From: Haloterrigena turkmenica DSM 5511
GTDB taxonomy: Archaea > Halobacteriota > Halobacteria > Halobacteriales > Natrialbaceae
DNA length: 64,000 bases
Direction of reading: 5' to 3'
NCBI RefSeq assembly: GCF_000025325.1
Contig: NC_013744.1
Location: 248,001 to 312,000, forward strand
This document shows positions 24,668-28,293 of the stretch, piece by piece. A model generated the notes under the pieces. It had not been told where the DNA came from and did not search any database. It was given only the letters and a program-made list of their open reading frames with translations. Made by a program: the position numbers and the translations under genes. The number at the start of each line of letters is the position of its first letter. Position 1 is the stretch's first letter.

Positions 24668-24696
24668 GGGATGGGCTCCGCAGCGGAGCCCATCCC
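24668..24696. repeat. Long perfect hairpin (14-bp arms)
   Basis: GGGATGGGCTCCGC and its exact complement separated by a single A, equivalent to a 13-bp stem with a CAG loop. It lies just before the IS66-type fragment and about 180 bases upstream of the GH31 gene. IS ends and transcription terminators both use such hairpins; the neighbouring IS debris favours the former. Confidence 0.55.
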
Positions 24697-27051: not shown

Positions 27052-28293
27052 CTACGAGTGCTGTGGAAGTCCGTCCACCGATCCGGCATCTCTCGGACGA
27101 GGCCGCTGCTGCCGCGCCGTCGACGTCAGGTGGTCGACGACATACTTCGCATCCCTGCCGACGCCGGTGAACAGCCCCGACGTCATCGCATACAGGAAGA
27201 ATAGGCCGACGAAGTACAGCCCCGGCTCGTCCGGGACAACACCGCGCACGTGGACGGGCTCCTTGGGCTGTTCCTTTCCATCGAAAACCGGGAGGTCTAT
27301 CCACGAAAAGTCAGGGCGGAAGCCAGTGCACCAGATTACGTTCTCGACGTCGAGAACGTAATTGTCCCCGACGACGGGGCGACCGTCGCGGACGCCGGTC
27401 ATACGAGGCACCCGCTCGACGCTGGCCGCGGTTAGGTCACTCGGCTTCGTGCGCACTAGCGGACCGCCCTGTGAGAGCACCTTCGGGCGGATATGGCGCC
27501 CGATCGGCGTCCCCGTCGTGAATATCCGGTGGAAGAGCACGCGCATTACGAACGGGACCCCGAGGTGACGGCCGACCCACGAATCGATGTGAAACGGCAC
27601 GTGGCCGACGTCCCGGCCCGACAGCCACGTTTCGTGCTCGTCGGCGACAGCGAGGTCCCGGAGGGACCTCTGGCTCACGGCGCCGGAGGCACCGTGAACA
27701 GGGCGAGACGCGGAGCGTCTCGCTTGCAGCCGGCGCGAAGCGCCGGCAACGTCGAGGGCGATCTCGGCACCGGAGTTGCCCGCCCCGACGACGAGCACGT
27801 CCCCGTCCTGGAGCTGAGTGGAATTGCGGTAGTCGCTCGTGTGCAACTGGACGATGTCGTCGGAAAGTTCCGCCGCGAAATCCGGGACCGTCGGGACCTG
27901 ATAGCTCGCCATCGCTACCACGACGTTGTCCGCCTCAATCCGTCGGTCGCCCGCGGTGACGAGGAAGCCATCGCCGCTCCGTTCCAACCTGTCCACGCGG
28001 ACACCGAGTTCGACGGGTAGGTCGAACCGCTGGGCGTAGGTCTCCAGGTAGTCGGCCACCTCGTCCTTCGTGGGGAAGGCGTACGGTGAGCCCGGATAGT
28101 CCATCCCCGGTAGGCTCGAGTAACGGGCGGGCGTGAACACCCGGAGGGAGTCCCAGCGGGCCCGCCACGCGTCGCCGACGCGGTCGCTCGCGTCGAGGAT
28201 GACGAAGTCCCGGTCGTGCTGCTGCAAGTAGTATCCGGTCGCCAGTCCGGCCTGGCCGCCGCCGATGACGACGGTGTTGTGTCGTTCGGTCAT
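27052..28293 (-). CDS. Flavin-containing monooxygenase-type oxidoreductase
   Basis: 413 residues. FAD-binding GGGQAGLATGYYL (11-23), NADPH-binding VVGAGNSGAEIAL (about 167-179) and the late WCTGFRPD motif place it in the CzcO/YUCCA-like flavin monooxygenase group. It would use NADPH and O2 to oxygenate a small substrate. Unusual: after DVAGAS there are about 30 Arg- and Ser-rich residues (RRLQARRSASRPVHGASGAV...) before the normal HETWLSGRDVGHVPF block. The DNA there is a string of short palindromes, yet the frame stays open. Function after this insertion is uncertain. Confidence 0.82.
   Translation of the reverse strand: MTERHNTVVIGGGQAGLATGYYLQQHDRDFVILDASDRVGDAWRARWDSLRVFTPARYSSLPGMDYPGSPYAFPTKDEVADYLETYAQRFDLPVELGVRVDRLERSGDGFLVTAGDRRIEADNVVVAMASYQVPTVPDFAAELSDDIVQLHTSDYRNSTQLQDGDVLVVGAGNSGAEIALDVAGASRRLQARRSASRPVHGASGAVSQRSLRDLAVADEHETWLSGRDVGHVPFHIDSWVGRHLGVPFVMRVLFHRIFTTGTPIGRHIRPKVLSQGGPLVRTKPSDLTAASVERVPRMTGVRDGRPVVGDNYVLDVENVIWCTGFRPDFSWIDLPVFDGKEQPKEPVHVRGVVPDEPGLYFVGLFFLYAMTSGLFTGVGRDAKYVVDHLTSTARQQRPRPRDAGSVDGLPQHS
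27652..27747. repeat. Cluster of short perfect palindromes inside the monooxygenase gene
   Basis: GAGGTCCC-gga-GGGACCTC (27652-27670), GCGAGACGC-gga-GCGTCTCGC (27703-27723) and GCCGGCGC-gaa-GCGCCGGC (27729-27747), with a weaker CACGG...CCGTG between the first two. All three strong ones have 8-9 bp stems and a three-base purine loop. They code for a stretch that appears to be extra to the protein family. Confidence 0.75.

Follow-up and report, generated by a model that had tools for sequence, protein, structure and literature searches.

The window analysed here is a stretch of 64,000 nucleotides from Haloterrigena turkmenica DSM 5511, the genome of which comprises 5,440,782 bp in all and includes contigs of 3,889,038 and 698,495 bp. 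Among its genes is one for a flavin monooxygenase-type protein (Table 1), and the closest solved structures to this protein are the flavin monooxygenases 4usr, 4usq, 4c5o and 4a9w. The protein reads ...DVA-GASRRLQARRSASRPVHGASGAVSQRSLRDLAVAD-EHETW..., where its relatives have DVAYEHETW or DVADGHETW. A preliminary description of this DNA had noted three short palindromes with 3-base loops and a weaker fourth, lying within 96 bases and interrupting the usual sequence ahead of HETW. Four hairpins with 3-nt loops are indeed found at 27652-27747, and the relatives join DVA to HETW through two residues. The location has been confirmed, and alignment with homologues, most of which have no such segment, gives a slightly larger size: the insert is of 102 bp (27649-27750, minus strand) and adds 34 residues.

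Table 1. Host gene, cassettes and hairpins at the monooxygenase locus of the window.
Feature	Position	Strand	Description
Host gene, flavin monooxygenase-type protein, 413 aa	27052..28293	-	ORF; Pfam Pyr_redox_3, FMO-like
Original-gene GTCGCC, directly 3' of insert	27643..27648	-	homologue alignment; empty site GAC^GTCGCC
Cassette U2, 51 bp	27649..27699	-	GTT[CACGGTGCC tcc GGCGCCGTG]AGCCA[GAGGTCCC tcc GGGACCTC]GCT; in-frame reading VHGASGAVSQRSLRDLA
Hairpin C of U2	27652..27670	.	+ strand GAGGTCCC-gga-GGGACCTC; perfect 8-bp stem
Hairpin B of U2	27675..27697	.	+ strand TCACGGcGCC-gga-GGCaCCGTGA; 10-bp stem, one mismatch
Cassette U1, 51 bp	27700..27750	-	GTT[GCCGGCGC ttc GCGCCGGC]TGCAA[GCGAGACGC tcc GCGTCTCGC]CCT; in-frame reading VAGASRRLQARRSASRP
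Hairpin C of U1	27703..27723	.	+ strand GCGAGACGC-gga-GCGTCTCGC; perfect 9-bp stem, 3-nt loop
Hairpin B of U1	27729..27747	.	+ strand GCCGGCGC-gaa-GCGCCGGC; perfect 8-bp stem, 3-nt loop

Folding of the whole palindromic stretch yields four separate hairpins with an energy of -42.4 kcal/mol (z = -7.2), and none of 200 shuffled sequences folds as well. A chromosomal sample of 800 kb contains 15 clusters of at least two 3-nt-loop hairpins, and 444 kb of the plasmid contig contains 2. Third-order Markov controls gave 0.0 such clusters, and 0-3 were obtained when loops of 4-7 nt were considered instead of 3.

The insert divides exactly into two units of 51 bp each, U1 and U2. The empty allele, GAC^GTCGCCGAC, is found in Halalkalicoccus, and the genomes G094, G052 and G054 are likewise empty. 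An allele longer by 51 bp, with two hairpins corresponding to U1 alone, is present in Halomarina and Halegenticoccus, which are devoid of U2; the allele longer by 102 bp, with four hairpins, occurs in the window and in the genome G104. In the homologue alignment the flanks of these three alleles are identical, and the architecture of U2 matches that of U2 copies in other genomes. Since the relatives with an empty site include distant bacterial homologues, insertion is the simplest reading of the allelic series. On the evidence of the alleles, the string of palindromes is best read as the product of two successive, back-to-back cassette insertions, rather than as a single element or a set of four independent palindromes. 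The alleles also suggest that the cassettes move, and we consider it very probable that a short mobile element of the non-autonomous kind, the twin-hairpin cassette, has inserted here twice. The preliminary description had named homologues with the same residues on non-palindromic DNA as evidence that would speak against it; what is seen is homologues without the residues. A 21-bp partial version at the insert site in Halovivax could be read as a deletion remnant of an ancestral segment that was lost in other lineages. Such a history is highly improbable, as it would need repeated, precise deletions of the size of a unit and leaves the distant bacterial homologues also without the segment, while unit-sized presence and absence recurs at unrelated sites.

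Alignment of copies from unrelated contexts gives a canonical cassette of 49 bp, GTC-hairpin B-TGCAA/TGCCA (~5 nt)-hairpin C-CCT/CCG/GCT, in which both hairpins have a perfect stem and a 3-nt loop. The copies form ordered arrays of 3-nt-loop hairpins that often begin a few bases past a stop codon. An exact search for one of the palindromes returned the palindrome itself and one match with two mismatches in another coding context, a tblastn search of plasmids with the 34-residue insert peptide gave no match, and a pattern derived from U1 detected copies in 20 of the 125 genomes of the host's family, Natrialbaceae. Outside this family the stems differ, and a strict sequence pattern therefore gave a single match in the class, to one of the family's genomes. 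As the stems vary in sequence, a search based on structure was needed, and a covariance model (CM) trained on ten intergenic copies only, with the coding copies left out, recovered the family. This model finds the coding copy U1 of the window with 53.6 bits (E 5e-12) and the other coding alleles with 60 bits (Halomarina), 53.4 (Halegenticoccus) and 48.6 (G104); U2 alone is matched weakly (21.1 bits, E 7e-4). Matches are seen in 95 of the 125 genomes of the host's family (E<=0.01) and, class-wide, in 116 of 292 genomes (E<=1e-5), where a single genome has up to 19 among the matches listed.

In 57 distinct copies 98.0% of the stem positions pair, against 85.2 +/- 0.8 in shuffled sequences; there are 112 double-change cells against 35.5, and 10 of the 16 pairs have a compensatory change. 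The covariation of the stems far exceeds both the shuffled and the slid controls. These sequence comparisons place the coding insert in a dispersed, mainly intergenic family of cassettes, and the further copies that the preliminary description had proposed to look for in haloarchaeal genomes are present. A search of the full texts of open-access papers gave no description of the family in haloarchaea.

Presence and absence of cassettes is also observed at other loci. In genus g33 a multi-copy repeat with the site GGGGCA^GCCGCGAGG has none in L284, L286 and L288, one in L314 and two in L298, L299, L301 and L318. At another site of the genus, GGTGGC^GCGTGCC, L286 is empty, and L315 and L319 are filled with one cassette. 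A DUF7558 gene has a 49-bp cassette in five genomes and its homologues are empty. In a non-exhaustive search for further genes with an insert this was the one other coding insertion that came up, and, being of 49 bp, it breaks the frame. Among the species of one genus, the 3' UTRs of aIF1A and PII-like genes range from a lone base hairpin through two hairpins to larger numbers, the cassette being an optional add-on to the base hairpin.

Many copies lie right after stop codons beside a T-run and a hairpin, and in Haloferax a hairpin can act as a transcription terminator (PMC7237163). Both would fit a conserved functional RNA element, a terminator or a processing site, lying in the monooxygenase gene by chance. 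This explanation is improbable: the insertion in the gene is missing from most homologues and keeps the frame, the cassette of the 3' UTRs is an optional extra on top of the base hairpin, and the cassettes have no match in Rfam above the gathering threshold, which is passed by the adjacent RNase P RNA in L298 alone.

In the host's family, stop codons may be followed by a base element, CGAACTTTTGCKCTGC[hairpin]TCGGCAAAA (L141, L147, L159, L191-L194, L222). It has T-runs on both strands and looks like a two-way terminator that receives cassette insertions. Counted in an 800-kb sample of the host chromosome, a T-run motif was too sparse to be informative. The multi-copy repeat of g33 (L283-L288, L294-L302) often has TTATAAA upstream and contains a conserved CTCAAAGGGGCAG; it could be an undescribed family of non-coding RNA, and in L298 the RNase P RNA adjoins it. 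Cassette-like hairpins are also seen beside an apparent tRNA 3' end (L092:1864-1920), where the tail CTCCGTCAGGACG recurs nearby.

Orthologous hairpins frequently differ in their loops. In a table hand-collected from four loci, 17 of the pairs that differ have loops exactly reverse-complementary to each other, 2 are complements only and none is a reverse only, the flip being seen in 9 of the 13 variable hairpins. Against the pooled loops, a permutation test gives moderate significance to the excess of flips (p = 0.011), since gaa and ttc make up most of the pool. Comparison of the window with G104 reveals two exact flips (TCC/GGA) and one TCC/GAA. On the gene strand, hairpin C of U2 has TCC in the window and GGA in G104; hairpin B of U2 has TCC and GAA respectively; hairpin C of U1 has TCC in the window and GGA in G104, Halomarina and Halegenticoccus. 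Between the genomes G024 and G025, all three hairpins compared at the PII-like locus (base, D and A) are flipped.

Template switching at inverted repeats is known to homogenise the arms and invert the spacers (PMC8604942, PMC8794818). This includes coding genes of yeast, where inversion of a gaa spacer to ttc is on record (PMC8604942). Template switching also creates and maintains hairpins (PMC8794818). It accounts well for the arms and loops of the cassettes: a switch of template by DNA polymerase across a hairpin would keep the stems perfect and invert the loops. Two other inverted repeats of the window may be mentioned here. The host gene contains a second perfect palindrome of 28 bp (27335-27362), where the palindrome of most homologues is shorter and the window allele is altered symmetrically on both arms; it is likely to be a template-switch footprint in coding DNA. 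A perfect inverted repeat of 14 bp with a 1-nt loop, GGGATGGGCTCCGC a GCGGAGCCCATCCC, lies at 24668-24696.

Template switching in replication, or copying mediated by microhomology, could also spread the cassettes between sites with no transposase, so that one process would give the perfect arms and flipped loops as well (PMC8794818, PMC8604942). The insert site of the host gene does have microhomology (GTC/GTCGCC). We regard such copying as rather unlikely as the means of dispersal, since variable ends would be expected and the unit is constant (GTC ... CCT/GCT, 49-51 bp) at unrelated sites; the DUF7558 junction, moreover, has little microhomology.

No clear target-site duplication is seen at the cassette junctions, whose placement is uncertain by 1-3 nt. 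Direct repeats of 3 bp (GTC/GAC, CTT) occur at some of the array junctions, and there may be a very short target duplication. The GTC repeats were considered as target duplications and rejected, as the DUF7558 and g33 junctions put GTC in the left end of the element. Under the insertion of mobile cassettes that we favour, these would insert cleanly, often beside or within earlier cassettes, and arrays would therefore grow by two hairpins per step. The copies in the gene, in which one stem is longer by one pair, would contribute 17 codons each; as both units in the window are of 51 bp, the reading frame survives.

A Y1 (HUH) transposase, of either the IS200/IS605 or the RAYT type, could act on the cassettes in trans, a mode of movement proposed for PATEs in haloarchaea and for REPINs in bacteria. 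The cassettes would then represent minimal left and right hairpin ends, cut out and pasted in single-stranded form. The terminal hairpins, the lack of inverted terminal repeats and of a clear target duplication, and the nesting in palindromes recall the PATEs of Haloquadratum and IS605-type elements, which show these features and include 52-bp versions made of the termini only (PMC3119063). Such an origin is possible, although doubtful, given that the host genome has a broken Y1 fragment of 38 codons only and that no constant left target of 4-5 nt is seen. Y1 was looked for in the host, in its relatives G024-G026, which are without any, and in six g33 genomes with 8-18 cassette matches each (G269, G264, G128, G133, G342, G131), which gave no match; no mobilising enzyme was identified in this search. 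Insertion may have come about through a past or transferred Y1 enzyme, through pure template switching or through an enzyme that reads structure. Tentatively, and with little confidence, we picture a class-wide haloarchaeal 49-bp family recognised by its shape and not its sequence (two 3-nt-loop hairpins with free stems), served by a non-Y1, non-duplicating inserter and acting occasionally as a donor of 17-codon blocks to proteins.

The flanks of the insert have dN/dS values of 0.12-0.20 between insert-bearing alleles and of 0.14-0.24 in comparisons that include insert-free alleles; the host gene is under purifying selection with or without the insert. An alignment-based AlphaFold model has a mean pLDDT of 73.7, with the insert residues 189-218 below 50, and a model made without alignment has a pLDDT of 39.7. 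The AlphaFold model places the insert in the NAD(P)-binding domain, with a helix (173-195) on one side and a strand (222-225) on the other. The surface loop for which the preliminary description had asked a prediction appears in the model as a low-confidence stretch between helix and strand, and a tolerated surface loop is its likely identity. The extra 34 residues would be tolerated because they fall in this probably disordered loop.

The cassettes would constitute a family of tiny mobile palindromes that is widespread in haloarchaea and apparently undescribed, and that has a natural series of none, one and two copies. The monooxygenase offers a case of mobile palindromic DNA joining an enzyme gene that remains under selection. 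Loop flipping together with stem covariation makes the family a natural laboratory for template switching, and the question of its mobilising enzyme can be put to concrete tests.

The likeness to the Rickettsia palindromic element (RPE), suggested in the preliminary description, holds for a dispersed palindromic insertion in frame and does not extend to identity. RPE is a short palindromic repeat that lies in frame in a functional gene and adds a peptide (PMC10969869), and the insertion described here similarly lies in frame in a gene that is kept under purifying selection (flank dN/dS 0.12-0.20). RPE is of about 150 bp and codes for peptides in many unrelated genes, whereas the cassette is of 49-51 bp, twin-hairpin and mostly non-coding; one gene with an in-frame cassette was found in a partial search. 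The distinction is drawn from size, architecture and distribution.

The PATEs and SMRs of Haloquadratum walsbyi are also haloarchaeal and transposase-free, have near-terminal palindromes, produce no target duplication and insert into other palindromic elements (PMC3119063). The cassettes share with PATEs the near-terminal palindromes and the lack of inverted terminal repeats and target duplication, within the 1-3 nt ambiguity of the junctions. PATEs have a sequence link with the ends of IS605-type elements, and SMRs measure 80-110 bp and carry inverted terminal repeats (PMC3119063); as judged from these descriptions, the cassette is set apart by its fixed 49-bp two-hairpin unit, covarying stems and flipping 3-nt loops.

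REP, BIME and REPIN sequences are small palindromes of high copy number, often dimeric and mostly extragenic, with complementary changes in their stems (PMC3733652), and the cassettes resemble them in copy number, extragenic location and compensatory stem changes. They differ in having 3-nt loops and tandem or nested units and in needing no resident RAYT-type gene, the host having the broken Y1 fragment and several cassette-rich genomes none. The foot of the hairpin is GTC and not the GTAG tag of REPs. The host gene has a CGTC foot, as do those copies whose stem is GCCGGCGC, and this foot of hairpin B, with the CC-N tail, loosely recalls CGTC-tagged REPs. Arm homogenisation and spacer inversion are common to the cassettes and to template-switch mutations at inverted repeats; the latter are isolated events, whereas in the cassettes the process would act on a dispersed repeat family. 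The cassettes belong to the broad kind of small mobile palindromic repeats but depart from both REPs and RPEs in traits that define these.
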